Shown here: positions 641 to 51,033 of the stretch, piece after piece | Numbering within the stretch: the first letter of the stretch is position 1 | How the letters are laid out: the number at the start of each line of letters is the position of its first letter | Assembly (NCBI GenBank): GCA_009746045.1 | Contig: RPFO01000132.1 | Location: 565,090-629,089, forward strand | Direction: 5' to 3' | Length of the DNA: 64,000 nucleotides | Source of the DNA: Mesostigma viride | Lineage: Eukaryota > Streptophyta > Mesostigmatophyceae > Mesostigmatales > Mesostigmataceae | Translations under genes and position numbers: made by a program | The notes under the pieces: model-generated | Seen by the model: the letters and a program-made list of their open reading frames with translations, nothing else | Database searches by the model: none | Told to the model about the DNA's origin: nothing

Positions 641-643
641 TCA
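638..643 (-). promoter_or_regulatory. Leaky stop-codon context UGA-CUG between gag and pol
   Basis: The gag frame ends CAG TGA CTG on the minus strand and the downstream frame is open. UGA followed by CUA or CUG is an established readthrough context in RNA viruses and some cellular genes. Its use here is inferred from the in-frame continuation. Confidence 0.5.
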
Positions 644-1755: not shown

Positions 1756-1924
1756 CCTGCACTACCAGCTATTCAAAGAACACCTTAACGAAGCAGCAGA
1801 AAATATGTACAAAATTTTTGTGTCGCCTCTGCCGCCTGCGCCGGTGTCGCTGCCGCCCCCGCGAATTGCCGCCGAAATTCGACAAAAAAATGTCGACAAG
1901 TACTGCAGAAGAAAATTAGGCCGA

Positions 1925-2725: not shown

Positions 2726-3270
2726 TCAGGAAACACAGACGTAAGTCACGTCACTTCCAAGACTGCACGCAGCACAGACGACAGGGTCGCAGTGCCAAGA
2801 GAACGTGCACGCAAGAACTAGCGTCCCGGTGTGACCAAGTCACTCATATAGCTTACTAGGGACGCGTCCAAGTATTCAGCTGCACTGTCACAGCTGAACT
2901 GTCAATCAATTGATTACACAGACTCTGGCACGCCTTTGGCGCGCAGATCTATCAATTGTCCATACGGCTAGTCCTGTGGTCCTATCCGTACACTACTCAG
3001 CATCAATTGTCTCATAGGTCCTGGCGCGCTACAGTGCGCCTACCTATCAATTGACCATCAAGTCCTGTACAAGTCCTGTCAACGTCCTGCGGACTATCAA
3101 AGTGACACTTGTACATCCTGTGTCCGTACGCGCCCACAGTGGCGCGCCGGGTACTGTCGGCACAGCCTAGGAAACGTCATAACTTTTACGTTCCTTAACC
3201 AAATGAGGCGTTCAAGGTGCCGTTGGAAAGAGCGTAACAATCTCTATCCATCTAACGTAAATCCTTTACG
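2726..3270. other. No gene seen; spacer downstream of truncated retroelement
   Basis: No coding potential was recognised. Short motifs recur: CAATTG (six times between 2,900 and 3,060) and TCCTGT(C/G). The part near 3,180-3,220 has an AACTTTTACG motif that recurs in inverted form in the LINE 5' regions near 40,335 and 46,675. Confidence 0.4.
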
Positions 3271-6560: not shown

Positions 6561-7129
6561 TCTAGCAGCTTGTGCTTGTGCACGAAGACCTGGAAATCAC
6601 GTGCAGCCCCGGGCAAATTTGCCTTATTAACTGCATAGCCCTCGAAGTCGTTGAAGGCTTGCTCGTCGGCCTCTTCCTTAGACCGCGACAAGTGGGCATC
6701 TAGACCGTTGTAAAAAACTTCCCAGGTTTGTTTGTTGTCGTCCGCAATGCGAACTAGATTGGCAATGTTTGGGTGCTTTGTTGTACTGCAGAATACTGCA
6801 CGGAACTTGCCAATCAGCTCCGAATCTTTGTCTGCGCGTCCATCGCGCAGACGCTTGAGAGCAGCTAGAAAATCTGCTGCGTCGTCCGCCGTATAGTCGG
6901 CCGGTAGATCAGCGGGCACCTCCGTTTGCTTGAGAGGGCCGCGATTTAGTGCATCGTCAGCAGCAAGCATCAGATGCTTGAACTGCTTGGCCAGTTCAGG
7001 TTGCGCCACGAGGGTTTGCATCAACCTCGTGGCCTCGTCCGCACTAAAGCGTGGCAGGACGGACCCTGCGGCCTCGCCACTTGGCGTATCTGTGTGTTCG
7101 CCCGTGCGGCTCCGTGTACCGGAAGCCAT
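6491..7129 (-). pseudogene. N-terminal Gag of the second retrotransposon
   Basis: The frame starts MASGTRSRTGEH and runs about 190 good residues before a frameshift. After the shift the neighbouring frame continues smoothly as FLCNRFLKKCDLSSDV. The segment is helical and charged (RLMQTLVAQPELAKQFKHL, DDAADFLAALKRLRDG), as in retrotransposon capsid regions. It is the 5' end of the polyprotein that continues through integrase to 3,271. No 5' LTR could be identified in 7,130-7,600. Confidence 0.6.
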
Positions 7130-18138: not shown

Positions 18139-21100
18139 ATGAGACGGTTTTGGACGAAAGAGGGCAGCTCCATCTTTTTTGCCCGTCTGGCCATGATAGT
18201 GAGTACTCATACCGCGCGTCGTTTGGATGTTTGATGAAAGATCGCGCAGTCGTGTTGGTTCCAATATGCGTACGTCGTGGATGGTGTGTATATACGTATC
18301 AGTGAGCGAAGTACCAACGCGCGACTCCATCTGACAATGGTTCACTTGACATCGTTCTTTTTAATCTATATCGGGCTTACAGGCTATCTTGGCGGGCAGC
18401 ATAATAGTGCTGATGTTGTTCGATTCGCTCTTCTATCACAAGAAGATGATGACATCAGTATCATTGCTCTCGGACCGTATTCGCGTGAGCGTGCTGAACG
18501 AGACAGGTATGATCTGCCTGATCATATGTATAGATATATGTACTGGCCCAATCCTTGTCTGCAATTGCCATGCAGTGACAGCTGATTGACTGGGCAGGCC
18601 GATAAAGATGACTGTGTATGCTTAGAATGTGAAATAATGGTAACAAGAATACCAGGACTAATGCCAAGTTTTGGTGACTGCATGCTGTCTCATTTCTAAT
18701 AAGGGCATCTAGCCTGTAATGATTATAGCAAGGGGCAGCAAGTGAATTGACTCCTTATAGTGAATGTCTATCTATTATGTCATTTTTGCGATAGTGCCCT
18801 TTTCTGGACAGTTTTCAGCACATGCACAAGGATGAGGTGTCGCAAAGTTGAATTTCCTATCACGTTGGATCGGTAGACTCCTACGGGTTCGACATTTCCC
18901 CCAATGTCTGAGGCATCTAACTAGCGGGAAAGGTAAGACTTATCTGTACGCAAACACCGTCACAGTCACCCCGCCATGCGTTTCCCTTTTGCTCCTAATT
19001 GCCCATGCTTCCACCTTGCATACCCATCTGCATTTGTTCCTAATTGCCCATGCTTCCACCTTGCATACCCATCTGCATTTGTTCCTAATTGCCCATGCTT
19101 CCACTTTGCATACCCAGTCAAAGTCACAGTCACAGCCACAGCCACAGTCACAGCCACAGTCACAGTCACAGTCACAGTCACAGCCACAGTCACAGTCACA
19201 GTCACAGTCACAGTCACAGTCACAGTCACAGTCACAGTCACAGTCACAGTCACAGTCACAGTCACAGTCACAGTCACAGTCACAGTCACAGTCACAGTCA
19301 CAGTCACAGTCGCAGTCGCAGTCGCAGTCGCAGTCGCAGTCACAGTCACAGTCACATTCGATGCTCAGCCCCATGCCTACGCCCACACCGATGCCGCTTT
19401 TCCCATTCCCCTCCTCGATCCCGTTACCCATTCCCCTCCCATGCCCGCACCCAATGTCATGCCGTCGCCATTCCCGTCCTGGCCATCATGGTTTTCCGAA
19501 TGCCTGTCCTCATTCTTGTCCTTGAATAACTCCATGCCTACCTCGATCCGGCAATGGCTTATTCAACCCCATTTACTGCATACTACCTTGTGCGCACTAT
19601 GTGTTCCACCACGGTGTTACGCACTTTGTTCTACAAAAAACACTATGAACCACATTAAACTAATCTAAACAAAAACGAAACAAAACAAAACAGAGCAAGG
19701 CGTGGTCTCGGTCCTCCACAGCGTGAAGCTCGTCTCCTCCTACGCGGCTGCCGTCTACTCGTCGCCCCTTGTCTGGGATGGTACCCCGACCGAGGTGCGC
19801 GCGCGTATCGACCACGCAAATTTTGCCACCGAGAAGCTGCTCCGAACCGAGGCCCATTCCATCACCTTCCTGACCGATAGCTTTTTTGCGGGGATCTTGA
19901 CGGGGCCGCTGGTCCGGCCCTACGTGGCCAGCTACTATGGCGAGTTTGATGTTGACAAGGTGGTCGGCTCGAGCGTGGAGGAGCTCCCGAAGTATCTGAA
20001 CGCTACCATGTTCTTGACGGATCCCATCACGGAGTTGCCCGTGTTCGGCCCGCTCGACACCAACGATTTTGTGTATGAGGGGCTGAAGGTACGCAAGCAT
20101 ACGTAATGAGGTATGATTCAACCAGTTTAGTAGCAGGGATGGAAGGCACACAAGTATAAATAATAAGGATTATACATCAAGTTTTTGTTTTGGAGGCTGA
20201 AGGTGCGCAGGTATAAATAATTATAAGTAGTGCACGACAAGTTGTGTAGGAGGGTTTGAAGGCACGCAAGTAGTAATGCAACCAATTTGTATACGAGGGT
20301 CGATGAAGCTACGCAAGCCTTGCAAGATGTTTGTGTACGAGAGATTGAAGGTACGCAAGTATAATGAGTATTGTATAATAAGGATTGTATAATAAGTATT
20401 GTATAATAAGGATTGTATAATAAGGATTGTATAATAAGGATCGTATAATAAGGATTGTATAATAAGGATCGTATAATAAGGATTGTATAATAAGGATCGT
20501 ATAATAAGGATTGTATAATATGGATTGCCCCAGACGTTGTATTGCCCCAGACGTTGTATTGCCCCGGACGTCGTGTTTCCCTCTATCGGCCCTCCATCTG
20601 CCCTCTATCAATCCTCCATCTGCCCTTTATCAATCCATCTGCCCTCTATCAATCCTCCATCTGCCCTTTATCTATATGTGTGTTTATCTGCCCTCGCTGC
20701 GTGTTTCCCACCAGAAAATGGTCGTCCTGAGCCAGTACCCAATCGACACCCAGCCGTCCTTCTTCATGCTGCCCAACCGATTTATCAACGCCAACACGGC
20801 GCAGCTGGTCGAAGAGCTGCTCTTCGTCTCCTTCACGGCCGTGAGGGTGCACGGGATCCACAAGGGCTACCTCTCGATCGGGTCGGACCTGTCCCAGGTG
20901 GAGGCGTTCATGCGGGAGCTCGACCTGTGGGGCGGCGAGCTATTCATAGTCACGCCCGAGGGATTCCTGTTCGGCGCGTCGAGCGGCTCGGTCATCGTCT
21001 CCGCCAGCGACAACGGCCCGCACCAGCTGCTGGCGGAGAACAGCAACAGCTCGACGATCGCGGGGGCGGCGGGGTTCTTGCGCCAGGTGGCACAGCGCAA

Positions 21101-24100
21101 GGACCCCAATGGTGAGCTGACAGGGAATGAGGGACTTTCGAAGGCAGAGATTCTTTCTTCTTTACAAGAAAGGAGTTATTGCTCGTTATCCGCGTTGCTG
21201 GGAGCAAAAGGGGTTGCCCTTGCACAGCACAGGAGATTCCTCTAACCCTACTGACCCTCGTCTGCCCCTGGTGTCTTGTTCTCGGTAGATAGTGAGCGGA
21301 CTGGGACTTAGGAATAGAGGAGCAAGGGAGGTTTCTCTAGTGGCCCCCCTCTGTGCCTAGCTCCTTGTCACTCTCCTTGTCGCATGAACTCCTTTTCCAA
21401 TGGTGGGTGGTGATTTGGGGTTGGAAAGTAACCTCGCTACAGCCGTAACGTATGTATCTGTCGTCCTCCTGAACCTGTTGTCAAACGTCTTCATATTGTC
21501 AAATAGACCCGTTGATATTAAGGCAGGCTTGAGCTACCATGGTCTGGATTTTCCAGGTTTCAGGCCTGCGCTGGTCGTCTCATGGACACCATGGTCACTA
21601 TAGTATAGTACTGCCATGCCTGCACTGGTCGTCTCATGGACACCATGGTCACTATAGTATAGTACTGCCATGCCTGCGGTGGTTGTCTCAGATGTACTAT
21701 TATTAGTGGCAGGCGGGTGGGCGTGCAAAGGTAAGTTGCGGCATGGATATAACCGATAATGGCAGGCACAGAAGGTCGGGGGCGCAACATGTCTCTTGTT
21801 TGTCGGCTTGTCCATAGTCAAACGGTAACTTTCCATGTCAATGTGGGTTTATTGGCGTGCCATTCCCATTTGAAATTTCCCCGTCAAACGAGACATCGTT
21901 TGAAGGCAAAGCCACGTGTTCTGGTCTATTATCCTCACACTTTTGCCTTGGTTCGCACAGCTCACCCCTCATCTCTGTCCCCCCTTACTCTCTTTGATGC
22001 CCCTCTTTCCTTCGGGTGCCACAGCCACGATGACCGGCGCGTGCACGCCGTACGCGGGCGAGGTCTTTGTGGGCGGACGGTCCTACTTCATCGATTGCCG
22101 TCTCATCCACAGCATCGAGCTGCCCCTCTTCACCGTGCTGCTCATCCCGCGCTCCAGCATTTATGATGACGTGGACGAGGCCACATCGGTCTCGCGCATC
22201 GTCATGATCGTGGTGGCGTCCCTGCTGTTCGTGGTCGGCGTCGTCCTCACGATCGGGTCTACGTCAAAGGTCTCCAGCGAGGTGGGTTTCATGAGACGAT
22301 GGGGGTGGTGTCCGAATTTTACACAAAACCTTGGAATTTTAAATAAGTGCCTGTGGAATGGCAAGGTGCCCACTTCCAGGTAGGTTTCAAACGGCAAGGT
22401 GTCCAGCGTGGGGGATGGTCTTACATAGCAAGGAATCCACCTCGAAAGCGACGTGGGTTTACTTAGATGGCAGGATGCAGTTTAGATGAGTAGGTGTCTA
22501 TCGAGGATGGGGTCTCATGAAATAGCACGGTCCCCACTTCCCCCGCGTCAAGCAAGATGTTGCTTCGGATACGTCACGTCGTCTACCCCGTGTGTCCTAG
22601 ATGGCAAGGCCTCTCAGATGACAGCGTGGCCAGCGAGGTGGGGTTTATGGCACAAGGTGCCCAACGATGTGGGTGTTATTTTACAAGGTATCCTTCCCGA
22701 TAGTATCCAGCGAGGAGCATCGTAGATACCACGATGCTCAGCTGTGTGGGCATTGGACGGTCAAGCATTTGGTAGGGGGAAGCACGGGATATCCTCTAGG
22801 GGCAAGCATGTCAATCCCGGCCCTTCTGTCCCCCCTCCTTTCCCACCTCGTCTGCTTTCCTCTCTGTCCTCTCGGCTTCCCTTTGGGTCCATCCTCGCTC
22901 TCCGTCTGTCCCTTTCCATCCACGCCACCAAATACGTGACCCATGCCGTTGTACAGCCTTCGAGCCTTCGTTTAGCCTTTGAACCCCTCTTAAGACCTGT
23001 TGAAGCCACGTTTAGACTCTTTCTAAAGCCTTGACGAAGGGGGACGGGCAGCTGGGTACTTCATGGCACCCTGGCCACCTCCCATATCATGTGGAAGAAC
23101 ACGTCATGAAACCCCACCCCAAGTCTCGTTCCTCCCCAAGTGTGCAGGTTCCGCTGAACATTAAGCCATCCGTCGTGCATCGCAAGCCCTCCATCCCAGA
23201 TCCACCCGTGTCCCTTTGGGTCTCCTTATTTGTCCAGGGTCATGCTCAAGACCACACGGTATGTGGCCATTAACAACCCAACACCAAACCACCCTGCGTG
23301 GCTCTCGCCTCTGGCTTTTCTTCTCTCCTCTGGCCTGTTCTTACTTGTCCAGGTGACCCTCAAGAACAAGCTGGCGGCGCTCAACCAGGACTACCTGGCG
23401 GCGCGCGACCGGGCGGAGGAGCAGGCGGCCATGGCAAAGGAGGCCAACGCCGCCAAGAGCCTGTTCCTGGCCAACAGTGAGTGGGGGCCAAGAACCTGTT
23501 CCTGAGTGGGGCCCAGTGTTGCATCCCTGTCAGGATGACTCTGGAGGGTTATTCTAGGGGGGCTGTTTCTTCGCTTTCCTGTTTCCTTGTTAGTCGCCAT
23601 GTTTTATATCATTCATTGAAGCAACGCAGACATCCACCCAGGCCATGTAACCACCCAGACAGTTCTGCTGCCAGATAGATTTGCCTTGCCTTTTCCACTC
23701 CATTCGCTATCTCATGGGCGTGAAGTCTTCATCGTTTCTAGATTCCCTCGTAGCTAACCTTTCTTTCTGTGCCGACTTTTGCAATGATGGACGATCCACG
23801 CGCTCTTGGATCTCCCCAGTGTCGCACGAGCTGCGCACGCCCATGACGGGCATCTGCGGGTACGTGGACCTGCTGCTGGAGGAGAGCGACCTCAAGCCGG
23901 AGCACATCGAGTCGCTCGTGCTCGTCAAACTGTCCAGCTACACGCTGCTGCAGATCGTGAACGACCTGCTCGACCTGTCCAAGATCGAGAGCCGGCGGCT
24001 CACGCTCGACGAGAACACCTTCAACCTTGTGGGCGTGCTCGAGAATGTCTCACGACTGTGAGTGATGCCGATATTTTTAAAATCAAGGTTTGAGGTAATG

Positions 24101-27100
24101 TTGGCGGGGTGTGGGGAGGGAGGAGCTTTCATGATAACATAGAAAAATCTGTATTTCCTCGTCAGCAATGCTGGAAGTGGGCTAAGTAGCAAACGTGGAA
24201 CGGGAAGGCTTTGTGGTCACAATTGTAGGCAGGTATATAGCCATGCAAATGGCTGCAAGGGCTAAGATCATAATGGGTCGTGAATGGGGCTTGGGTTAGA
24301 CAATTGAAAGTTTCTCATGCAGGAAAGAAGTTGACTGTGATAGCGCAACACCAGTAGCAAATTTATTAGTATGGGAAATAGCTTTTTGGAATCAGCAGAT
24401 GTCCGTGAAAAGGAAACTTTCTATAAAATTATCAATACTCAAGAAGGCTTTCAGAACTTTTAGCAAGGAGTAATATACATAGGAAGAGAAACAAAAAAAT
24501 GTGTAGACAAAGATTTGTGTTCGAGCTTAATGGAAATGATAGTGAAAGCGGAGAGGTGTTCAAGGGGAAAAAGCTTAGCCTTAAAAAAATGAGTTCCAAT
24601 AGTAGTAAGAGAAAGCAATTATACATGAATTAGTTTCAAAACAGCAGTTGAGGAGATTGTTTTAATCAGGGGGCGTCTACTCAAGGCTAAAGGTTAATTT
24701 GATGACAACGTTAAATATTCGTTAAATGAGCATGTCAAAAAAAGAAAATGCATTGAGAGTTTTTATTTTTGAAATTTACTTCTTTTAACATTGAAAAATT
24801 TTGAAAACAAGTTTGACTATCAATTTTGTTCAAAAGGCTTTCAAAATTCCAATAAAGAGGTGAGCCATTTTGGGAAGCACTCTCCAATGAGGAATCGGAT
24901 AACTAGGTTGATTTTGAAGTAATCGTGTCAATTAAGATACTGAGTTTAAATAGATTCAAATGTGCTCAAATTGGGCCAGATGTGGCCCATGTTGACCCCA
25001 ACCACCGCGTTCCATTCAATACTTCCGCTAGTTCGTACTTCATTTAATAGCTGAAGTGAAGCATCGAATGGAATACCGTGGTTATCTTTTCCCCTCGGTT
25101 TGAATGTAGTGCACATCATTTTCTCGAGCGCGTCCGTTGAGCGTCACAACTTCGCGATCATCAACAGAGGACGCCGTCACAACTTGGCGATCATCAACAG
25201 AGGACGCTGTATGTTGGGATCTTGGACATGAATTAGGTGTTATACCCCGACTGAGGATGTGGTCTACCTTTCTAGTTTTCATATCTTGTTTCTGCAGCAA
25301 CATTCCTTCCCCGAACCCCCGCCCTCGCTCCCCCCCCCGAACCCCCGCCCTGTTTTGGACCCTTCCCGCCCTCCCTGTACTCCCTGACCTCAACATGCCT
25401 CACCTCAATCGATGCTTTCTAATAACGATTTTATGGGCGAGTCCCCCCCTTTCTATCCCTCCCCAGCTTTGGCGTGACGTGCGCCAGCAAGAAGCTGGAG
25501 CTGGTTCTGGACGTGGACGACGCGCTTCCCACGTGGGTGGTGGGCGACGAGCTGCGGCTCACGCAGGTCTTCTCCAACCTCGTCTCCAACGCAACCAAGT
25601 TCACGCTCCAGGGCCACGTCATCATCCGCGTCAAGGCCACGCGCCGCAACGACGGCGCCAACCTGCCGCACCACCCGGCCTGCCGTTGCGCGTTTGGCAA
25701 GAAGGCCCAGGGCGCCGCGACGTTTGCCAGGCAGCTCCCGGACAAGAGGACGGTCACCATGGACAAGATGCGCTCGGTGGACAAGGCGGGCCATCATGGG
25801 GATAAGGCGGCACTTGGGGACAAGGCGGGCGGTGCCCTCGACACCAAGGTGGGCGATGGCATGGTGGTGCTCGACATGCACGGCCATGGGGGCCACAACG
25901 GGCAAACCGATCCGCGATGTCACGGGGAGGAGGACTGCTTGACGCCCAGCCATGTCTGTGCCGCGTGCAAGTTCCGGGGCAGTCCGTGCGTGCGGCTGGA
26001 CTGCGAGGTGGATGACTCAGGTGTCGGCATCAGCCCACGCAAGCGCGACGCCGTTTTCCAGCCGTTCGTGCAGGCCGACAACAGGTCGGCTGCTGTTTTT
26101 GCACATTGGTATTCTCTTGATAGTTCCTGTGTGATGCACTGTCCAGATAGTTCACGTGATGTATCTTTATTGATGATCACGTAATCCCAGCTTTCCCGAA
26201 TGTTGCAGCATGGGCCGTTGACCCCGGATTGATGTCGTTGTGGATGATGCTATTGCAAGTTCCAGGGCGGCATTGATGTCGGTAAATCAGCCGACGATGG
26301 GTGAGCTGTCACGACTTACAATCAACTGTCATTTGTGCACGTAGTAATTGGCACTGTATTTTATATATTCAGTTGTTTTGGGGTGGTGCACCCATGCTGC
26401 AGGGATTGGCGAACAACAGGCGAGTGCCGTTGTTAATGAGCAGGTGTATAAATTCTAGGGTGGTGCCCACTGCCAATAGCAAAGATCGTGCCAGCTCCAT
26501 GCCCTACTGGTTAAATGGGCTGAAGATATGCGCTGATGATATGTCAGGATCTTCGCCCCAACCGTGGTAAAAGCACCTTTTCTATTAATAGAGTTGCTGC
26601 AATTGGCTGCCGTGTGTTTCGGAGGAGCCACATGTCTCCTCCACTGTCAATTATTATGCGACGAGCAACGCAGGCCTATCCATGTCGCCTCGCGTTCATT
26701 TTGCTTCTTGCCAGTGTTCAGCCCACCCGATTCATTCTGGTTGGTCGAGAGGACTCGTCAGGCCTCGCCAGGGCGTCCCCTTGGTCCATGGAGTCAAATC
26801 GTGCTGGTGTCGATGCTTTATTTCTTGACATGCCCCTTGAGTGTGTGTGGGTGAGTATGAAGCTGATTCTAGCATACTGGCTTCCTCGCGCAACCGCTCA
26901 TACCCTGCTCTTTGTTTCATCTGCACCCCTGGTCTTCTCCCTGGGTGTGTATCGGAAACCCGTGAATAACTGTTGTGTCTTTATCTGCGAACACGGCGCA
27001 CAGCACGACAAGGCGCTTTGGAGGTACCGGTAAGCAAAAAGGCTCTTTCTTCCCTTTCTTTTCCTTCCTCTTTTTCTTGGTGCGCGTGTTGGCACAGGAA

Positions 27101-30100
27101 TTGCTGTAAGGGTAGAGAGCGCGTGATCGATATGCATCTGCTGGGATCGTTGAAAACGCTCCATCTTTATGCTAGTGCCAGGACTAATTTGGCGAAATTT
27201 CCGGGTTTTATGGCATTTCTATACGGATCTGGATATAGACGGGTATGGCAGGGTTATGGCAGATGCCACCCTGCCCATATCATGCTCAGTGCCAAGATGT
27301 ATCGGGTAGGATAGTTCGTCTAACCACCCCTTAACATACGGACAATAATGTCAGTCAACCTATGCTCGAGTGTGCAACCTGACTTCGAAAATGTAATGCA
27401 CGTTTCTCTTTTACAGTAGCCAGTAGTACAGTGCTTTAGCCATACCGAAGTAGTTTTAGCCCGAGCTACGAGTTTGAATAACACGCGCGCCCCCCACCCA
27501 CCCACCCACCCAACCAACCTAGTGACACACACACACACACACATAGTCACACAAGAGTATCACATGGACAATGCCTTCTGTGAAACAGCAACCCCTAATC
27601 AAGAGCGCACTAATATGACAAGTATCTGTTCCAGTAGTGCCAGTGCTACTAAAAGCAATAGCACTATAAGCAATAGCACTATAAGCAATGGTGGCACTAT
27701 GAGATGAGCCAGATGTGTGCTTGCGCACCCAGATGCAGCCCTCCCCACCCAATGCACCCAAACCAAACCAAGCCAACTAAAGCCGTCATGTTGTTTCTCT
27801 CACCCTCCCTCCCTCCTTTTTGCACCCCGCCCCCCCCGCCCCCCCCCCCCCAAGGCCTGGGCTTGCCCATCATCCAGTCGCTCGTGCGGCTCATGGGCGG
27901 CTCCCTCGCCATCGTCGACAAGGAGGGGCCCGGCACGCTCGTCGCCTTCTCCATGGTGCTGCGGCTCGCCGACCAGTCCTCCGAGTCGACCCTCGTCGGC
28001 ACCCCGTCACCGCGCTGGCTTGGGTCACCCTCCCTCGACAGAAGCCAGAGCGGGGCCCGGTCGCGCCCCCGTCAGTCCGCGAGCTTTGGCTCCGGGTCGT
28101 CCATCCGTAGTGGTCCCCCCAGCCCGCTGGGCGCCACCAGTCTGGGCGGCAGCGCATTGCCATGGGCCTCCCCCTGTATGCATGGGTGCCGACTGGATAG
28201 CAGCATCATGAGGCAGGGCGAGGCCATGGTCATGGGAGTCAAGTTTGACGAGCATCTTCATCTCCCGCCGCAGCAGACGATGCGGCCGCGCTCGCCCTCA
28301 CTCCAGTTTGACTACGGGACGTGGGCGTTTGAGAAGGCGCGTGCGATGGCGATCGATCTCGTGCGCACGACGTTCGAGGGAGGGAGCCCATCGGCCCATG
28401 CCGGCCACGCGCCCTTGACTCAGAGCATGAACACGCTGCTGGCTCAGCGCAAGACCCGGCCGAGGCCGTCCCAGCTGCTCTCCCCCGAGGAGCTGGGCCG
28501 CATGGATGACCTGTGGAGTGCATGGCTGGAGCGCCACGTGGCTTCCGCCAGTGGGGGCAAGGAAAACACAGGCCCCGGGCATGTCCCTGCGGTCCTCCTG
28601 GCGATGAGGGGCACCGTTGCGCGGTCCGTGCTCAAGAAGTGGCTCGTCAGGCACGGGTTGCGGGTGGTGGAGGCAGCAGACACGGCCACGTTGGTCGCGC
28701 AGCTGCGGCGGTTGGTTACGAACGCCAGCGGGTGCATGGTCTCGAGGAGCGAGGCTGCCGCCGCGGAAGCCAAGGAGTCTAGCCCGCGGAGCCCGCCCGC
28801 GGGGCGTGGCAGCACGAAGCAGCTCCTGCGGCAGAGGAGCGTGAGCAGCCCGGCGCTTCTGTCAAAGGGCCAGGGGGCGCTCGGGGCGCCCACCTCGGTG
28901 ATGGGCGCGCGTGCCCAGCTGAACGGGAACAGGAACGGGATCGCCAACGGGGATGGGAATGGGGGAGGGAATGGGGGAGGGGGAGGGAGCGGGAGTGGCG
29001 CAGGGAACGTTGTTGACGGGAACCCCGCAGGCTCGCGGCGCGACGCCTGGGTGTGCGACCCACCGGTCAGCCCGTTCGACTGGGCAGGGTCCCTGGCGCC
29101 CACGTGCGGGTGCCGCCTGCTGGCGGTGTTCATCGAGGACATGTTCATGGTGCCGAGCGCGGGGGGGGGAGAGGAGAATCGCAACAACAGCAGCAACAAC
29201 AGCAATAGCCACAACAACCACGATAACAGCAACAAGGCAGGCAAGGCGAATGGGGCCCAAATGGGGCCGGCAGGTGGGGGCCCATCGGAGCCAGCGTTGG
29301 GGGGGCAAATAGGGCCGGGCGGCCGTCCCGTGTTGGCGGAGCCGTCCCACGGGCGGCCCTCAACCTCTTCCTGTGGGCGGGTTGATCAAGGGGTTTCTTC
29401 CTCTTCCTCGTGGGTGGCCTCCAATGTATCTGTTCCAGCACGGGTGGACACCGAGGGCCATGGTGTGGTGGGTATGATGCATCACAGCAACTATCCCAAT
29501 GGGGGCAATGAGGCATTGTTCCGTGGAAAGGAGGGGGTGCAGGATGCCAGCAGCCACGGCGGCGGTGGCAGGTCCAGGGACGAGTCCACAGGCAGCATGG
29601 AGCTGTCCATGTCAGGGTGCGGGGTCGAGAAATCGGACTCATACGCGACGGGCAGCGGGAGCGAGGACGGCGGGTGCCAGGTGGCGGCGGCCCGTTCGCT
29701 AATCGGCCGGCTCCCCTCGTCGACCACGGTCGTGTGGCTGCTGGGGTACGGGTCGGGCGGCGCGGTGCGGCGCCACCTGCTGGACGTGCGCGTGCGCGGG
29801 CGCTGCGTGACGGAGGCCATGCCGCTGCACGCGCTGCGCGTGACGGCACTGCTGAGGGACGCCGCGATGGTGACCCCCAGGGGGGCCGACCCCAATCACC
29901 CCGACCCCGATGGTGATTGGGTCGTGAGCATGAACCATGGGGCGGGGGGACCGGCAAGCACTCCACCCCCCTTGCCCAGCCCACTTAGCCTTGGGCGATT
30001 CGATGCGCCAAGCTTCAATACATCCGGCTTTAACGCATCGGGCGGGGGTCCATTCATCCCGTCCGTCCCGTCGTTCAGCGCACTATCCCGCATGGCCAGT

Positions 30101-33100
30101 GAGGTGGCGGCGACGGCCGTCGCGTCGACACCACCTGGCAACCTCTCCTCGCTCGTGCACATGAGCCGCGTCGTCGTCAGCAGCGAGACGTTGCTCATGG
30201 AGGAGGCTGCGGCGGGAACGCTGGCGGAGTCGGTCGCGGCAGATAACCGGTCTGTGGCGGCGGCGGCGGCGGAGAGTGGACCAGGGGATGTCACGGTGGA
30301 GGCGGCGGGTGCAGGCACACCGAGGGAGGGGATCCAGAATTGGCGCATCTTGGTGGCCGAGGTGAGTCCCGGCGACATGCCGTTTGGATCACTGTACCTG
30401 ATCGTTGTACCTGGTCACGGTCCCTGGTCACTGTTCCTGGTTACTGTACCCAGTTAGTCTACTTGGCGACTGTGTTTGTTGGGTGTACTTGGTTACTGTA
30501 CTGCGCCCAGCATTGGCGCATCTTGGTGGTGGTGGTGGTTTGTTGGGTGGGTGGGTGGGTGGGTGGGTGGGTGGGTGGGTGGGTGGGTGGGTGGGTGGGT
30601 GGGTGGTGGGTGGGTGGGTGGGTGGGTGGGTGGGTGGGTGGGTGGGTGGGTGGGTGGGTGGGTGGGTGGGTGGGTGGGTGGGTGGGTGGGTGGGTGGGTG
30701 GGTGGGTGGGTGGGCGGGCGGGCGGGCGGGCGGGCGGGCGGGTGGGGTGGGGAGGGGAGGGGAGGGGCAGAGGGGGGGGCAGGGGGGCGGGGCGGGGCGT
30801 ATGTTAGTGGCAGAGGTGGGTTGTGCCACCATTCAAGTCTTACGTTTGGTTGTGGCAGAGGCGGGTTGTGCCATCATTCACGTCTTACATCTGTGGCAAA
30901 GGTGGGTTGTACCCTTATCCACGCGGGTCTCCAATCGGGCTGGCTTAACTTGCAATCTTGGTGGCGGAGTTGCGTTGGCATGGGAAGGAACAAGGCAGTA
31001 CGTCTTTTGTTGAAGTGGGAGATGTGCGTTGCAGTAACATGCTATACTAAAGCATGCTATAGTATGTATGTATAGCATCATGCGGTACTTCATTTCATGT
31101 TCTATAATTCTGAGCCTCCTTTCGTGGGCTTTGTGAGGGGGTATCAGATTGCGCTCCTTTTACTAGGCTCGGCGAGGGTGACCCTTTTGAAGATGGTTAG
31201 TGTTTCCCAGTGCCGGTATGTTGCCAGTCTGGTATCAACAACGGAACGTTCTTAAGGAATATGTGATAGTAATCACATGTCAATATTACATACTAAGGGA
31301 CGGAGTCATGTTTGTATATGCAAAGAATAGGACGTATCCTCTTATTTAAGGGGTGGGGCTTGGCTCTACACAGGTGCCTCCCCCCCCCCCTTCCTCTTCC
31401 CCCTAGCGAGGGGGCGGTTTGGTGGTTCTAGACATGTGCTTTATTGCAAAGGCTGGCGGGATGTTCCAATCCAACCTATCAAATATATACGCGGGGTGAT
31501 GCGTGGTAACTGGTTCTAGGCGGTCCTCCACTAAATAAGATGTACGATATGCTATGTACTGGATGTCCAAAAATCCCAACAGGCGTCCTAATTCAGTACT
31601 GCATCTGATCGGTGCACACGCCGGTGCTTTGCATGGCAACTACGAAGCGGAAAGCCTTGTTGTCCGTGTTTTGCATGGGGGGGAGAGGTACTTGGATGTT
31701 TCACGTACAGATATCTGCTTGGCTCTGTCTGCACCTACGGGTCATGCGTCCTTAGCCATCAAGCCAGGGCGCACTGGTGTGACTAAACACTCACCTACCA
31801 CACATAACAAACCGTCTGTTGTGTTACTTTGTCTCACTCACACCACCAGGAGGCGCTGGTGGTCCGCATCTGTTGTACTCACTTACCCACCACCGATAGT
31901 CAACCTTTTGTGTGTCCTACCCCCGCTTTGCCTCACCCATGTCAGGATGCCTTGACATACAAATCCCCAGGACGTGCTGGTGGCCCAAGCGTTTGTAAAT
32001 TAGTCACAGGCCACCAAACCTCCTCTTTTCTAATCAATTTGCCTCTCTCCCTTCACCAGGACGCGCTGGTGGTCCAAGTTTTTGTGCGCTCGCTCCTCAA
32101 AAAGATGGGCGCGCGTGAGGTGGTTATCGTTGAAGATGGCGTGGCCGCCGTTGACACGATCAAGCGCGAGCTGGAGGCGCGAGCGGACGCCAGCGGGGCG
32201 GACGCCAGCAGCGGTGGCATTGCGCCCGTCTTCGACGCCATCCTCATGGACCTACAGGTATAGGGATACTAGCACGAGGAGCTATAGTGACTGTAATGGG
32301 CTAGGATACCTGGCATTTTTGCCACCCTCATGGACCTGCAGGTAAGATGGAAGGTGGGAGGGGGAATGTTCCTGAGAGAGCGACTCATAAATGTTTTTTT
32401 GTCTCATCTCAGTCAACAAGAAGGAAAAAAATCGAGATGGAAGAAGAATCGAGGCAATTTGATCTTACTCTTTTATGTCTTCTGTGGGATCCTGTCTCTT
32501 TCTCCTATGCCACCCCTTGCCGTTTCTTTTTGTGCCGCCCCCACGGATGGGCAGATGTCAGGCATGGACGGCCTGGCCGCGACGCGCGCGATCCGGCGCG
32601 CCGAGCGCAAGTACCGTACGCGGCACTTTGTGATCGCCTTTTCGGCGTCGATGGGCGCAGAGCTGCGCGTGCAGTGTGCGATGGCAGGGATGGACGCGTT
32701 CGTGACCAGTGAGTTTTGCTGGTGTTTGTCACCAGTAGGTTTTGCTGGCGTTTGTCTCCAGTGAGTTTTGCCGGCATGGACATCAACGTGGTGCCCACAT
32801 CACACAGGCACGCTGACACCCCTACCCGCAGATACTTTCCTACCGCCACCCCGCATCTCTTCCCAACCCCCCCACCCCCCACCCCCGCCTGAGCCCGTAC
32901 CCAGGCACGAGCTTATGACTCGCTTCAACATGCTCCTGTTGACAATGTGCATCTGGCATTCCCCGCGCCCTTTCCCTCCATCAAACACCCTAGAGCCGAT
33001 CACCGTGCAGAAGCTCGCGAGCTTTTCGTTCGCAGATCGTTGGCGTTCGATCTGGCATCACCACACATACACACGTCCTCATCACAAGTACAGAGCCGGT

Positions 33101-36100
33101 CAACATGCACAAACTCATGACCTTTCTCTGATCTGCTCATGCTATCAATGTCCATGTGGCATCCTGCCCCCCCCCCCCCCCCCCCTGTCCCCCATAATGC
33201 CCCCTACAGAGCCGGTCAACATGCACGAGCTCCTGAGCGTGTTTGCCGACTGTCGCCGCGCGCGCCAGCAGCACAGCGCCACCGTATCGCGCCAGATGTC
33301 CTTGGACAGGCAGTATGCGCCCTCCTTAGCCGGTGAGCAAGCCTGCAGGGGTGGCGTTGCTTTCACCCCCTCGGCCGACCCCTCGAGGCAGACTGCTCGT
33401 TGTGTGAGCTTTGATGACGAGAGCACGACGATGGGGAGGACGATAATGATGACGACAATGAGGAGGGCTGCGTCGGGGACATCGCCACGCACGGCTGCGG
33501 CGATGGATGCGGCGAGAGTGGCTGCTGGGTTTCGTGAGGGCGGCTCCTTCAAGGGGGCAGGATTCCCTGGTGCTAGTGCCGGCGCCGGCCCCACAGCAGG
33601 GTCAGGGCATTTAGGGGAGCTATATTTGAACAAACGCGCCTCAGTGGCTGCAGCAGCCATGGACGCAGAGGCAGCCGCGGCAGCAGAAGCCGCCGCCACG
33701 AACGCAGCTGCAGCAGTGGCGTCAGCTGCATCGACTAGAGGAAAAGAAAGGAAAGAAGAGAGGCATGTGCCGGCCATGTACCCTCTGGCAACATCACAAC
33801 CAGAGACGACGGGGGCCGCAAGCGTGGCCACTCGCGCAGCGGCAGGTCAGCAATCACCAGAGGCGGCACCTGCCACGGGGCCCACTCACTCATCAAGCCT
33901 GCGTCCTTCGCCAAGCCTCCATGAGACACCCGACCTCCAACGCATATCCACCAAGCCCGGTGGTGCTGACCCGCCCACACCCATGCCGTCTCTGCTGCTG
34001 CCCTCACCTGCCGCGGGCCAATTCAGCCCGTTGCCCATGATGCCTGCTGTGGGCCAAGTTAGCCCTTGTCAGGCGATGCCTGCTGTGGGCCAAGTCAGCC
34101 CACCGCCCATGCAACCGGTGGGTGGCCAAGTCAGCGCACTGCTGGCAAGCAGCCCGTCGGAGGGTGGCAGCAAGGCAGGTGCTGGCAAGCTCTCGCCAGC
34201 AGGAAGCGTGTCGCCGCCCAACAAGCCTCTGGTGGGCTGGACGATTCTGTACGCGGAAGACACGCCTATCAACCAGGTAACCAAGTTATTAGACTAGTAG
34301 ACTATACACGAGTGGACTCCTACGCACCACTAGCTCACATTGTATATCTATCACATTTTTCGAAGTAACTGGCATAACTATCCGGTAAAGAGTTTTTTCG
34401 CAGTTGGGATATAGTTTGGGATGCCTCCAGATCCAGATCAGGAGGACCCCTAAAGCCGCGGAATCATTCCAGAGGTCCTAGTTCGAATCCGTGTTGGAGC
34501 TACTTGAACTTTCCTTTTTATCGTCCCGGTGCTCGGCAGCATTTAGTTTACTATTTGTTGCTTGCCACGACAATATACACTGGTGGTATATATACTTTAA
34601 GGCTAAATACATTGGCTGTTCAAAGACGACAGGCTGATCCAGCAGGTAATTATCTTCACACAACGGAACTCTCTTGGGTAGACTAGGCTTTGTACGCATG
34701 TACATACGTGTCTTCATATGCACATGAATATACTGTTGAAGGACGCGTTAACCGACCTCTCCCCCTTTCTCGCACCCTTTTGTACGCGACTGTATGGGTG
34801 AAGGGCGCACCAGTTAACCCTCTCCCCCTTGTCACACCGCTTCCCCCCTGTATCCTTTCCCGCCTTCCCTCCCTTGCCACCCTCGCAAAACCAACGTTTC
34901 CATTCATGCCCCCCCAGCGCCTGGTGCGGCTGGTGCTGGAGAAGCTGGGCGCGGCCGTGATCATCGTGGACAATGGGCAGAAGGCTGTGGACCTGATGGC
35001 CGCTAGCTTTGCGGCGCACGCGGCGCACACCGAGGGGGAGCCGCCCTCGCAGCGCATCGACGCCATCCTCATGGACCTGCAGGTAAAGGGATACTAGCAC
35101 TAGGAGCTTTAGTGATCTATGGGAAGGGCTAGGATACCTGGCATTGACACCACTCTCATGGACCTGCAGGTAAAGGGATACTAACACCAGGAGCTATAGT
35201 GATCGTAAGGAAAGGGCTAGGATACCTGGCATTGACACCACTCTCATGGACCTGCAGGTAAAGGGATACTAACACCAGGAGCTATAGTGATCGTAAGGAA
35301 AGGGCTAGGATACCTGGCATTGACACCACTCTCATGGACCTGCAGGTAAAGGGATACTAACACTAGGAGCTATAGTGATCGTAAGGAAAGGGCTAGGATA
35401 CCTGGCATTGACACCACTCTCATGGACCTGCAGGTAAAGGGATACTAACACCAGGAGCTATAGTGATCGTAAGGAAAGGGCTAGGATACCTGGCATTGAC
35501 ACCACTCTCATGGACCTGCAGGTAAAGGGATACTAACACTAGGAGCTATAGTGATCGTAAGGAAAGGGCTAGGATACCTGGCATTGACACCACTCTCATG
35601 GACCTGCAGGTAAAGGGATACTAACACTAGGAGCTATAGTGATCGTAAGGAAAGGGCTAGGATACCTGGCATTGACACCACTCTCATGGACCTGCAGGTA
35701 AAGGGATACTAACACTAGGAGCTATAGTGATCGTAAGGAAAGGGCTAGGATACCTGGCATTGACACCACTCTCATGGACCTGCAGGTTAGTGGGTGGGGG
35801 ATGTTTACAAAATCCAGTACTCATTGATATTTTTGGCTCTGCCTTACTTTCCTTCCTTTGCCCTTGCCCTCTTGCACCTTGCACCCTCTCTTGCGCTCCC
35901 CTTCGTGATTGCCTATTCAGCTGCGCTGCCAGTGCCCCTTGCACGCTTGTCCCGCCTGACTGGACACTAACAGCCTTTTCTCGCATGTTGTGCCTCCTTC
36001 CTTTCCCTTCCCTCTTGCCACCCCTCGGCCTCCCTTGCACAGTCATGGCTTTTTCCCTCCCCTTCGCCTCTCCTTGCACCCTGGGGTCCTCCTGCCTCTT

Positions 36101-37092
36101 GCCTCCCCACCTGCCGCCGCTCACGCTGGTTGTTCATGTGGCCACTGCGCCTTTGCCTTCCCCGTTAGCCTTCCCCTTAGCTTCACCCCTCGCCTTCCCC
36201 CTCGCCTCCCCTGATGCCCCCTGCTAATGAATGATGCGCCGGCCCCCCTTCTCCACCTGTATTGTGCGCGGCCTTCGCCCTGTTCCGTGCGCCAGATGCC
36301 CGTCCTGGACGGCTACGGCGCGACGCGTCTCATCCGCGAGCTGGACGCCTCGTTTGGCCGCACGACCGTCATCCTGGCGCTCACCGCGCACAACATGGCC
36401 AGCGACGCCGAGTACTGCAAGAGCTGCGGCATGGATGGATACCTCACCAGTACGTAGGGCGGGGAGCGGGGGCGGGGGGGGGGGGGGGGGGGGGCGGACG
36501 AGGGGGTACCTCACCAGTGAGTGGGGGCAGAGCGTGCTTGTTTGTTTGCTGGTTTGGAACCGAATAAAGATAAGCCTGTCGGTTTATCTGTGTGGCGCTG
36601 CTATGGTTTCTGCTTCCATGTTGTTGGGTTGCCGAGTTGGTGTGGCTCCCATTTGTCGTTGGTTTGGATTGGTAGTGTATTGCCTCTCCAATAGGTGCGG
36701 CGCACGCAGTGGATGGCTAACTCGTTGGTGCATTGGGGGGCGCTCATGTAGTTTGGTTGCCTGTGTTGTGTGTATGTTGGTCTCGCACACCGATGCATGC
36801 TGTCACTTGCGCGCGTTTGTTTCTGTATGAATGGGACATCCATCCCAAGAGTGGGATGGTTTTCATGCTGGAGTAGGCACCGCGGATGGTGCCTGCTATG
36901 TGCATGTAGGCCACGAGTTCTACGCCCACAACTACCACCTCGTCCTTTATCTGACCATCAAATCTGCCCTGGATTCACTGCGCGCCGGTGGCCTTGTTGT
37001 ATGTCATTTTAAATCTTCGTGACCACCCACCAGAGCCTCTGATTGTGGAAGCCCTCAAGAAGGAGCTGTTCCAGATCGGGAAGTCCCGATGA
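18139..37092 (+). CDS. Hybrid histidine kinase with Cache-like sensor, degenerate receiver and two receivers (16 exons, 2,180 residues)
   Basis: Exons: 18139-18198, 18383-18506, 19694-20088, 20715-21111, 22025-22281, 23353-23476, 23820-24057, 25467-26084, 27004-27029, 27855-30361, 32060-32257, 32555-32708, 33210-34276, 34918-35082, 36296-36449, 37034-37092. All are GT-AG and in phase, totalling 6,543 nt. The protein should sense an extracellular ligand and phosphorylate itself on a His, then receivers. Residues ~14-37 are a signal anchor and ~385-405 a second membrane segment, with a ~350-residue Cache-like sensor between. His455 lies in MSHELRTPM. The ATPase N box is NLVSNATKF (569-577), G1 is DDSGVGIS (714-721), the F box is FQPF, and G2 is GGTGLGLPI. 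About 100 extra residues lie between N and G1. Residues ~990-1410 look like a degenerate receiver. Receiver 1 has the acidic pair at 1582-1583, Asp1646 and Lys1700; receiver 2 has 2049-2050, Asp2108 and Lys2162. The start is the first ATG giving a signal anchor across exons 1-2. Confidence 0.9.
18994..19116. repeat. 45-bp tandem repeat, about 2.7 copies, in kinase intron 2
   Basis: The unit begins CCTAATTGCCCATGCTTCCA. Copies start at 18,994, 19,039 and 19,084, nearly identical. Confidence 0.9.
19122..19349. repeat. Hexanucleotide satellite (CACAGT)n with CAGTCG variants, kinase intron 2
   Basis: About 38 hexamer units, with a block of CAGTCG variants at 19,308-19,340. It stays open in several frames only because the unit is a multiple of three. 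It lies between exons 2 and 3. Confidence 0.95.
20067..20368 (+). repeat. Degenerate copies of the exon 3 donor junction in intron 3
   Basis: The true junction is ...TGAGGGGCTGAAG|GTACGCAAG at 20,088/20,089. Five decayed copies of the exon tail plus donor follow, near 20,121-20,155, 20,181-20,216, 20,239-20,273, 20,281-20,318 and 20,330-20,368. Each keeps GAAGGYRCGCAAG or a close variant. Confidence 0.7.
20369..20522. repeat. A/T-rich tandem repeat, TTGTATAATAAGGA units
   Basis: About ten units of GGATTGTATAATAA or GGATCGTATAATAA follow the donor copies inside intron 3. The repeat is followed by three copies of ATTGCCCC(A/G)GACGT at 20,524-20,575. Confidence 0.9.
21564..21690. repeat. 54-bp tandem repeat in kinase intron 4
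   Basis: Copies begin GCCTGCNSTGGT at 21,564, 21,618 and 21,672 (the third partial). They include CATGGACACCATGGTCACTA. Confidence 0.9.
22265..22715 (+). repeat. Degenerate copies of the exon 5 donor junction in intron 5
   Basis: The true junction is TCTCCAGCGAG|GTGGGTTTCATG at 22,281. Variants of GTCCAGCGWGG..GG followed by a (T)TTCAT/TTTAT stretch and CAAGG recur near 22,396, 22,445, 22,500, 22,630, 22,660 and 22,700, in decreasing similarity. Confidence 0.55.
27004..27029 (+). other. 26-nt micro-exon completing the ATPase G2 box
   Basis: Without this exon the F box (...FVQADN) and GLGLPI cannot be joined in frame. The micro-exon supplies the end of a Ser codon and TTRRFGGT, giving the canonical [15 protein letters not shown] across three exons. 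It has a CAG acceptor at 27,001-27,003 and a GTAAGC donor at 27,030. Confidence 0.85.
30541..30765. repeat. (GGGT)n array grading into (GGGC)n and (GGGGA)n, kinase intron 10
   Basis: Over forty TGGG units lie on the plus strand, then CGGG units, then a G-rich tail. The array is strongly G-quadruplex-prone and lies within 200 bp of the exon 10 donor. Confidence 0.95.
31843..32086 (+). repeat. Three copies of the exon 11 acceptor junction
   Basis: CACCAG|GAGGCGCTGGTGGTCC (31,850), CCCCAG|GACGTGCTGGTGGCCC (31,971) and the functional CACCAG|GACGCGCTGGTGGTCC (32,060) share acceptor and first exon bases. Only the last leads into an open receiver exon; the 31,971 copy soon meets a stop. Confidence 0.8.
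32240..32346 (+). repeat. Two copies of the exon 11 donor junction
   Basis: The exon tail CTCATGGACCTACAG|GTATAGGGATACTAG (junction at 32,257) is repeated about 86 bp on as CTCATGGACCTGCAG|GTAAGATGG. The same spacer and motif form the nine-fold array in the paralogous intron after exon 14, so the two receiver modules share a duplicated intron. Confidence 0.85.
32885..33250 (+). repeat. Decoy acceptor/pseudo-exon copies before exon 13
   Basis: Imperfect copies of AGAGCCGGTCAACATGCACG... begin near 32,890 (GAGCCCGTACCCAGGCACGAG), 32,994 (AGAGCCGATCACCGTGCAGA) and 33,090 (AGAGCCGGTCAACATGCACA), before the functional one at 33,208. The second could code [15 protein letters not shown], close to the real [14 protein letters not shown]. 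The third hits a stop after about a dozen codons. Confidence 0.75.
35060..35790 (+). repeat. 88-bp tandem array carrying the exon 14 tail and splice donor
   Basis: ATGGACCTGCAG|GT occurs at 35,071 (real exon end) and then at 35,158, 35,246, 35,334, 35,422, 35,510, 35,598, 35,686 and 35,774. That is a first step of 87 bp, then an exact 88-bp period. The copies are almost identical, so the expansion is recent. Each has a yeast-like branch-point sequence TACTAAC (TACTAGC in the first) and a CTGCAG|GTAAAG junction. Confidence 0.95.
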
Positions 37093-48540: not shown

Positions 48541-48574
48541 TAGCCGTCGCCTCCGGCGCTTACAGCGCACGCAT

Positions 48575-50823
48575 TTGTCGCTTACCAACTCCACTCGCCC
48601 ACACCCCGAAAGCACCCGTCGCGTCATTTATGCCATTTACAACCGCAGGTACCCTCAGCGTATCTACGTTGGCCAGACGCAACGGGATGCCTGGACGCGT
48701 TTTCAGGAACATGTCCGAGCGGCACGCCGCCTTCATATTGGCCGCCCTGCCGCCAACGACGACACCCCCCTACATGGCGCCATGGCCCAATACGGGTGGT
48801 GGGATTGGCGAGTCGTACCCTTGGAACATGTCCCCGGCACCTTTACCGGCGCAGCTTTTCGCAAAGCCGCAGGGCATCGGGAAACGTTTTGGAAACGAAT
48901 GTTACATGCATTTCTGCCCCACAGTTTTTGCATTGAAGGCAAGAGCTTCAAAGCTCGGTCTCGCCGCCGCCCGCCTCCCCCCGTCCCCGCCCTCTTATGT
49001 TCATCCGTGCCTGGCGTCTGAAGCACAATCTCCACCCATATCGCCCCTATCCCCCCAGCGTCACCCCTGCTGCCCCTCCACCTTCCACACTGTCATGTGT
49101 CCACCGATCCTTCCCTTTACTCCACCAGTCTCCGCTGCTTACGTCACATGTCTCGGCTTATGCAACGCGGCAACTTTCATGCATCCTATCTCGAAGCCTG
49201 CAGCTTGAAGAAGCTTGCCAGCTTACACATTGCCGTCGGGTCGTGCTCCCCAGCTGATCTGCAAGTCCCCCGCTCCCATGCCACTAGTCTGCGAGGCCTT
49301 CTCTCACGTATCATTCGGCACCGTGTCAATGGGAATGCAGATGCACTGCGTCCGCGCCGTTTACTGATCTTACCTTTCATTCATGCTGCGATGGATGAGC
49401 TGTGTTTGCCACACATTCTGCCAATTTGCCGCAAGTGCAGGCTGCGATGCCGCTCGTGGTGCGCAACACTTTCGGCACTCCCATTGCCGCCTGGCATTAC
49501 TCTCCCACCTTGGGACAAATGGTTTTCAGCAATTAACGGGAAGGTCAGCCGCGATACAACGCCCACTGAGCTGGCCACCATCTTGGCAGGGCCCTGCCCC
49601 TGCCAACAACAACGGTATTTCAAGTACCTTGATCCCACCTCACAGCACGTCATGACCGCTGACCTCAGCATCCTGCCGAGCCACACGCTTGTAGACCTTT
49701 TTGCCAAAGGCACCAAGTTTCGGCCGTGGGTCCAGCGCACGTGTGCCAAAGAGGTGAATGCAATGCTCTCAACATCACTGCGCAAATTCTGCAATGCCAT
49801 GTGCACGGACCTACCGCTTGCTCCCCTTGCCATGGAACCGTGGTTTCGCGCCGTCATTCACGAATGCAATGCACGTCTCACCAGGCTTGATTACCGTCTC
49901 CGGCAGGTCCACCGCACCACCTGGCTCAACACCACAGATAAAGCACTTCTTGACCACTTCAAGCAGGACTTCATCATCACGTGTGTTGACAAGAGTGCCA
50001 ACAACTTTGCTTTTATATGCAAGAAGCACTACCTTGCTACTTTGCAACACGAGTTGGCGTCCAGCCCTACCTATATTCAGCGTGCACAGTCCACCGCCAG
50101 TATCACTGCTGCTCATCGGGCTTTTCTGCACAGCCAAAACATTGTTGCTCGGGCATTCCTTAAGCGGCAGCGACGCGCCACCACCACTACGTTCCCATAT
50201 CTGTATCTCACTCGTAAGCTGCACAAAACTCCTGTTGCTTTGCGCACCATTGCTGCGTCGCATTCAGCCCCACTGATGCCTCTCTCGAAACTCATCTGCC
50301 ATGCTTTGAATGCTCTTCTCCCCGAAGCCAATGCATTATGGGTGGAGGTGCTGTCGAATGCCGGGTATGAATGCGCTGGTAGTTGGATCGTCATAGACTC
50401 AGCCCAAGTACGCCTACGCCTTGCCGCCCTTAGTATAGCCGTTCGAAGACAGCAGCAGAGAAGCGTATACCTATGCCCATAGCCACCTATGATTTCACCA
50501 CTCTATATACCACACTAGATTCAGTGCACGATTTGAAAGCTCGTTTAGATAGCCTCCTTACTCGTCTGTATGCACGTAGGCCTCACGGGCGCAACCACCT
50601 GCACGTGCGTGTTTCTCAGACCAAGCTCACGGCAACGTGGCTCTCAGGGATTACGGCAGGTGCTATCGTGCGGGATGCTTATAATTATATTATCACGAAG
50701 GCTGACCTTGTTCATTGGATCTCTTATCTTGTTGATAACACCTTCATTTGTTTTGCGGGCAATGTATACCAACAAGCTATCGGCATCCCTATGGGCACTA
50801 ACTGTGCCGGGCTCCTTGCAAAC
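48575..50823 (+). pseudogene. Penelope-like element with N-terminal GIY-YIG endonuclease and reverse transcriptase
   Basis: The first frame (48,575-49,021) is a GIY-YIG domain: VIYAIYN ... RIYVGQT, then RFQEHVRAAR, and a Glu in HRETFWKRM. The RT follows in 49,097-50,482 (ITCVDKSANNFAFICKKHY, FPYLYLTRKLHKTPVALRTI) and 50,473-50,823. The latter carries motif A as TYDFTTLYT and motif B as QQAIGIPMGTNCAGLL. The two or three frames are separated by frameshifts. A GIY-YIG upstream of the RT defines the N-terminal-nuclease Penelope-like group known from algae and some other eukaryotes; canonical Penelope elements have it at the C-terminus. The RT is cut at LLAN by the MULE and resumes at 58,059. Motif C (YxDD) is not in the window. 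Confidence 0.85.
50815..50823. repeat. Target-site duplication CTTGCAAAC (left)
   Basis: It is identical to 58,050-58,058. Removing the intervening 7,226 bp plus one duplicate copy restores the RT frame. Confidence 0.9.
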
Positions 50824-51033
50824 GGAAGCGCATAATTTGGCTCTGATGACACAAACTCTAGTGCGGGGGTGAGTGCGGGGTTCCGGGACACCACCGCACT
50901 AAGTCCGACGCGCCTGCCCAGGCCACGCCGCGCCGGACCGGCACACGAGTTACGCGGGAAAAAAGGGCCTGCCGCGCCAATTACTGTAGGACTTGGCTAA
51001 TTTCTTTGTTGACTACAAGCGCAGTCAGGGATG

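Follow-up and report, generated by a model that had tools for sequence, protein, structure and literature searches.

The 64,000-nt stretch of Mesostigma viride DNA analyzed in this study (the window; C1956:565090–629089 of a 440-Mb genome) includes a gene for a hybrid histidine kinase that spans positions 18139 to 37092 on the plus strand. The rebuilt, spliced model for this gene has 16 exons encoding 2180 amino acids with 0 internal stops. Its best match is the Mesostigma protein P0001 (eukprot jgi/Mesvir1, Mv19823-RA.2), which is 100% identical to residues 167 to 2180 of the model and whose Pfam domains include HisKA, HATPase_c, and receiver domains. Given this identity, the public annotation carries the same 13 introns (introns 3 to 15), and the exon boundaries of the rebuilt model agree exactly with that annotation over all 13. 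We infer that P0001 derives from the published annotation of Mesostigma strain NIES-296. Passages of the paper describing that assembly report a size of 441,847,188 bp, introns averaging 1142 bp, and gene predictions that combined ab initio and homology evidence with that from isoform transcripts via PASA (PMC6947507).

The kinase gene is flanked by coding stretches at positions 1 to 7100 and about 48570 to 50840 that, as judged by eye alone, resemble retroelement remnants. Farther downstream, an 8-bp unit (TGCCCGAC) is repeated about 77 times at positions 54715 to 55334, adjoining a 21-bp array at 54428 to 54719. No RNA families or tRNAs were found in the window at the thresholds used, with ARAGORN set to the bacterial code.

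Segments that span the exon edges of the kinase gene recur within its introns. Each of 15 donors was represented by a query of 20 exonic and 10 intronic nucleotides, and each of 15 acceptors by 10 intronic and 20 exonic nucleotides. Every query was aligned to its own intron, and the result was compared with 300 dinucleotide shuffles. Donors 3, 5, 10, 11, 12, and 14 and acceptors 11 and 13 reach p = 0.003, which is the floor of this test. The signal is weaker for donor 15 (p = 0.007) and donor 6 (p = 0.010), and is weak for acceptor 6 (p = 0.013), acceptor 7 (p = 0.020), and donor 13 (p = 0.047). All seven donors that had been named in a prior, sequence-only reading of this DNA therefore have copies in their own introns (p ≤ 0.010), the copy at donor 6 being only a short one. 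Among the acceptors named there, 11 and 13 are strong and acceptor 6 is weak. The copies at donor 10 were absent from that list.

On the donor side, all on the plus strand, exon 3 (exon end 20088) is followed by five copies at +58, +117, +173, +218, and +262 (array and junction at 20061–20362), and exon 5 (end 22281) by six partial copies between +96 and +433 (22238–22715). Donor 6 (exon end 23476; 23454–23504) has the one short copy at +35, with 15 of 16 nucleotides matching and a score of 21. Copies of donor 10 (exon end 30361; 30334–30975) are located at +173, +454, +542, and +608. Donor 12 (exon end 32708; 32696–32775) is part of a 26-bp array of 3.1 units as defined by TRF, with copies at +26 and +52, and donor 15 (exon end 36449; 36437–36526) has one copy at +67 that carries a stronger donor motif than the real site (9.9 versus 7.6). 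The example copies cited in the earlier reading were placed correctly to within a few bases, at 23489 to 23504, 32724 to 32746, 32748 to 32771, and 36504 to 36526. On the acceptor side, also on the plus strand, one weak copy of acceptor 6 (exon start 23353; 23226–23381) is present at −115 with a score of 23. Acceptor 11 (exon start 32060; 31756–32085) has copies at −89, −210, and −294, and acceptor 13 (exon start 33210; 32882–33249) at −116, −214, and −318. Overall, the copies occur at regular offsets, and the best-resolved periods are about 24 to 120 bp.

The largest array follows exon 14 (exon end 35082; 35054–35787, plus strand), where TRF defines an 88-bp unit with eight further copies of the donor. 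These copies span −29 to +12 relative to the junction, and thus the unit has both exonic and intronic parts. The single copy of donor 11 (exon end 32257; 32237–32344, plus strand), located at +84, belongs to the same repeat unit, such that the introns following receiver-domain exons 11 and 14 (32258–32344 and 35083–35787) carry one unit in common. This shared array may predate the duplication of the receiver domain or may have been copied between the two introns. Introners are dispersed families of similar introns found across a genome. The 88-bp unit has at least six matches, all within four introns of two sister genes, in a search that skips very common words and that therefore gives a lower bound. 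On this distribution we rejected an introner or other dispersed element as the source of the 88-bp unit, although the coincidence of repeated sequence with intron boundaries is a feature that introners share in passages of one report (PMC4457414).

The sequence-only reading had also held that copies decay in quality with distance from the exon, which proves not to be general. For donor 3, the nearest copy (+58) matches 28 of 40 nucleotides and the most distant one (+262) 34 of 40, the top-scoring copy of donor 5 is at +386, and of the two donor 12 copies the one at +52 (21/24) is better than that at +26 (19/23). The description is roughly true of acceptor 13, where the identities are 29/32, 36/49, and 27/37.

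For counts across genes, a junction was scored as copied if a match with a score of at least 26 was present within 600 nt. By this standard, 7 of 15 donors and 2 of 15 acceptors of the kinase gene are copied. When 30-mers from the intron interiors of this gene were scored in the same manner, with low-complexity windows excluded, 13.4% passed downstream (n = 3130) and 13.2% upstream (n = 3117). Exonic 30-mers at least 20 nt from an edge gave no match at a score of 26, either in the next intron (0/924) or in the previous one (0/954).

The same count was applied to additional genes. A GBA2-type glucosylceramidase gene (P0122, Mv19827-RA.2, GH116), whose first 13 exons were mapped exactly and the rest by exact pieces in a model that omits exons in two stretches, has copies of 7 of 16 donors and 1 of 16 acceptors, with intron interiors at 17%. 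The choice of this gene was biased, in that it was found through three of its seven positive donors by way of gene-finder exons. Without those three, the kinase and GBA2 genes together still give 11 of 28 donors versus 3 of 31 acceptors (p = 0.013). A chaperonin set was picked by family (PF00118) regardless of repeats, wherein 23 of the 58 genome matches fall on the four loci used, and its junctions were set from domain matches and splice motifs before being scored. These four genes have copies of 9 of 20 donors versus 1 of 21 acceptors (p = 0.004; interiors 14.9%), counts that include four sites placed at GT or AG by inspection and one repeat (L033) spotted before scoring. One chaperonin donor is followed by nine further copies at a 48-bp spacing. 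Because the period of this array (L033:4313–4805) is divisible by three and the frame is open to 4805, splicing from an inner donor would add peptide repeats in frame.

Pooling the three gene sets yields 23 of 51 donors versus 4 of 52 acceptors (Fisher p = 1.4e-5), or by arithmetic 20 of 48 versus 4 of 52 if the three GBA2 discovery donors are removed. None of the pooled queries is found inverted in its own intron (0/51 donors, 0/52 acceptors). When matched to other introns, donors pass in 3 of 2450 comparisons, two of which are the two sister receiver introns, and acceptors in 0 of 2550. The shuffles, the inverted queries, and the mismatched introns together rule out chance similarity. The rate for intron interiors is 13 to 18% of positions across gene sets. 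Across the 304 kb that surround the window, 5.3 to 5.7% of random windows have a downstream copy, and minisatellite arrays make up 5.6% of bases. Outside the pool, the single verified donor of an annotated LRR gene (P0121, Mv19829-RA.2) is copied, a DUF4440 gene known from predicted exons alone has one donor copy and one acceptor copy, and three other predicted genes have copies of 2 of 10 donors and 0 of 11 acceptors. Among the exons called over the 304 kb by a purpose-written gene finder, which heavily overpredicts and whose exons are mostly unverified, 8 of 106 donors and 4 of 106 acceptors are copied.

The claimed association of the repeats with splice junctions is thus borne out, and on the donor side they exceed both chance and the intron-interior rate, also in unrelated genes. 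The same is true of the argument that microsatellite slippage is insufficient. The repeats are not microsatellites, the interior controls were purged of low-complexity windows, and low complexity was flagged for none of the junction queries in the three gene sets, and we set this explanation aside. The proposal of junction-targeted intron growth survives in part. The copies do lengthen introns, but symmetric targeting of junctions is unsupported, as acceptors (4/52) do not exceed the intron-interior rate.

An inverted paralogue of the kinase gene (paralogue B) is located about 5 to 20 kb beyond the end of the window and is open over 14 modeled exons. It lacks intron 3, which occupies positions 20089 to 20714 of the window gene; the other 13 of introns 2 to 15 are common to both genes. 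At a score of 26, copies are found for 2 of 13 donors and 1 of 13 acceptors of paralogue B, and at a score of 20 for 7 of 13 donors. This gene was kept outside the pool as nonindependent; with it included, the count is 25 of 64 donors versus 5 of 65 acceptors. In the numbering of the window gene, its copies have a similar spacing: donor 6 at +35, donor 11 at +70 and +157, donor 12 at +24 and +50, donor 15 at +63, and acceptor 13 at −103 and −191. No copy of donor 5 is among those listed for paralogue B. Donor 14 has one copy there versus eight in the window gene, which argues for turnover.

Affinities of the copies differ among junctions. At acceptor 13, where 13 exon-edge sites differ between the window gene (A) and paralogue B, the copies match their own gene (A:B sites of 10:2 and 7:3 in A, and 1:7 and 0:7 in B). 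Copies of donors 10 and 11 have mixed affinity. The donor 15 copy of paralogue B carries the A-type base at the sole informative site, where its own exon differs, and copies of this kind may retain older versions of an exon edge. These patterns indicate that some junction copies are probably older than the split of the paralogues and that others were probably re-formed or homogenized later. Exons 14 to 16 (34918–37092) are 90 to 98% identical in amino acid sequence to those of paralogue B (L007, C1956:629090–639089, minus strand) versus 36 to 93% for most other exons, and the introns between them are also unusually alike. The similarity of exons 14 to 16 suggests recent gene conversion with paralogue B.

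Among the 29 donor copies listed for the kinase gene, 5 lack a GT within 4 nt, others are weak, and several equal or exceed the real donor on motif scores trained on the same genes as were scored. All 7 listed acceptor copies of this gene have motifs weaker than the real site. Each of the 24 listed donor copies of the kinase gene that bear a GT would give a stop or frameshift if used, and therefore the annotated protein requires the outer donor. By the annotation and the open frame, the outermost donor appears to be the one used.

Arrays of this type have precedent in amphioxus. Passages on "mirage" minisatellites in the Adh3, globin (BflGb6 and BflGb9), troponin C, and PGBD5 genes describe minisatellite-like tandem copies of exon–intron boundaries at both intron ends, with units of 10 to 72 bp in Adh3 and 150 to 160 bp in the globin genes (PMC3087553, PMC3902484). 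In the same passages, the authentic copy is the outermost one, the arrays undergo turnover and concerted evolution, and splicing is reported to be undisturbed (PMC3087553, PMC3902484). Like mirages as so described, the Mesostigma arrays consist of minisatellite-sized units joined head to tail (TRF periods of 26 and 88 bp, and the 48-bp chaperonin spacing), the units cross the exon–intron boundary with exonic and intronic parts, and both boundary types are duplicated, albeit very unequally. In structure, these arrays are mirages. They differ from the amphioxus cases, which concern few genes and both intron ends, in occurring in a streptophyte alga, in their donor bias, and in that many copies are old and diverged. 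Parts of a report on human segmental duplications likewise describe internal tandem repeats at exon–intron boundaries, which alter gene structure and may give rise to new introns (PMC2812944). Those described are recent, paralogue-specific expansions, half of which are coding, whereas the Mesostigma copies are on the intron side and leave the annotated exons unaltered.

It is likely, in our judgment, that the arrays are mirage-type minisatellites that result from ordinary tandem duplication, a filter imposed by splicing, and the conservation of the exon copy. Slippage or unequal exchange would often duplicate short segments across noncoding DNA. For the second step there is some support: a duplication that crosses a donor would be tolerated because the copy adjacent to the exon stays in use, and one that crosses an acceptor would place a competitor upstream and would mostly be lost, or kept where weak. 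Thereafter, as the data support, selection would freeze the exon copy as its intronic counterpart drifts, such that junction-crossing duplications would be recognizable for longer than purely intronic ones. Unequal exchange would then alter copy number, and introns would grow. Some observations fit this account poorly. Often the best copy lies beyond the nearest one, unlike what is expected if duplications arise one at a time beside the exon, and the rates in paralogue B and among the unverified exons are low.

Junction targeting is unnecessary under the mirage-type account, yet a modest donor excess is left over. Because tandem repeats are common in intron interiors, much of the donor excess can stem from the frozen exon copy. 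If a frozen partner doubles the interior rate of 15%, about 30% of donors should be copied. The 45% observed exceeds the interior rate (p = 3e-7) and, mildly, this two-fold expectation (p = 0.016), which leaves room for donor-directed duplication, wherein a mutational process acts at 5′ splice sites, for example through trouble where nascent RNA and U1 contact the template. The near equality of donor rates in the three gene sets (7/15, 7/16, and 9/20) also fits such a process. The profile of copying along the junction peaks over the exon end, where windows that begin at −20 and −12 give 37 to 40%, which fits a frozen partner. Intronic windows just past the donor are slightly raised (9/49 at +4), with 12 to 18% for starts from +4 to +60 and 4 to 25% further in, although windows starting at +68 to +84 are also high (17–25%). 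Acceptor windows around the junction give 2 to 10%. Considering also how common interior repeats are, how much of the excess a frozen partner explains, and that the results invoke no known enzyme or mechanism, we regard a donor-directed process as unlikely.

The copies could also be retained by selection, as the sequence-only reading had suggested in proposing a role for redundant splice sites. Extra donors might be beneficial, for example if U1 recruitment protects long introns or reinforces exon definition. A survey of the identity of 62 copies to their junctions (score ≥24; 26 of 51 donors) bears on this as well as on the frozen partner. Codon positions 1 and 2 are identical at 523 of 581 sites versus 247 of 297 third positions (p = 0.005), a difference that fits a frozen exon copy, and the GT of the donor is identical at 101 of 106. 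Both GT bases are intact in 42 of 47 copies, whereas the other inner dinucleotides average 0.73, a pattern that selection on the copies could also explain. Furthermore, some copies match or surpass the real donor in motif strength, such as that of donor 11 (8.4 versus 5.2) as well as that of donor 15. However, in the fairer comparison with codon positions 1 and 2 the GT is not significantly better kept (p = 0.10), intron positions +3 to +6 are kept at just 149 of 180 sites, and the copies that are weak or lack a nearby GT also argue against a need for extra donors. The GT in the copies is neither purged nor significantly favored. The suggested selective role is thus not demonstrated, and we consider it improbable.

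A still less probable origin for the copies is as remains of intron gain through tandem duplication of exonic sequence bearing AG/GT, a process that, in passages on such gains, likewise joins tandem duplication to splice signals (PMC4974935, PMC2891723). It is true that paralogue B lacks intron 3, and the donor 3 array covers 274 of the 626 nt of this intron. However, 13 of 14 of introns 2 to 15 are common to paralogue B, and the copies derive from one junction rather than from both ends of the intron. Finally, long-read arrays can be miscounted, but it is hardly credible that the arrays are an artifact of incorrect exon boundaries or assembly error, as independent annotation is exact over 13 kinase introns and 13 GBA2 exons, most copies are diverged, and copies are found in multiple genes across four contigs.

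A broader reading of the mirage-type arrays is that donor-anchored intron growth occurs genome-wide, with ongoing seeding of copies of exon ends and donors. About half of all introns would then start with competing and often equal donors, from which splicing would pick the outermost by position. We hold this to be a speculative and rather unlikely extension.

Among open-license papers, what is apparently new is the frequency of such arrays, their donor bias, and their occurrence in the green lineage. The Mesostigma genome paper ties long introns to repetitive elements, which account for 30.1% of intron space, and its passages on introns, tandem sequences, repeats, and exons make no mention of splice-site arrays (PMC6947507). 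Nearly half of the tested donors, but few of the acceptors, have been copied into the intron, which suggests one way in which introns grow. In the kinase gene, the stretches between the copied junctions and their most distant copies total 2614 of 12411 intron nt. Junction copies therefore constitute about one-fifth of its intron DNA and offer a concrete way for introns to lengthen. The rows of near-identical donors, with eight or nine further copies, provide a natural test of how the spliceosome chooses among sites, and the asymmetry between donors and acceptors provides a quantitative prediction for a genome-wide scan. What has been a curiosity of a few genes in amphioxus looks common in the genome of an early-branching streptophyte.
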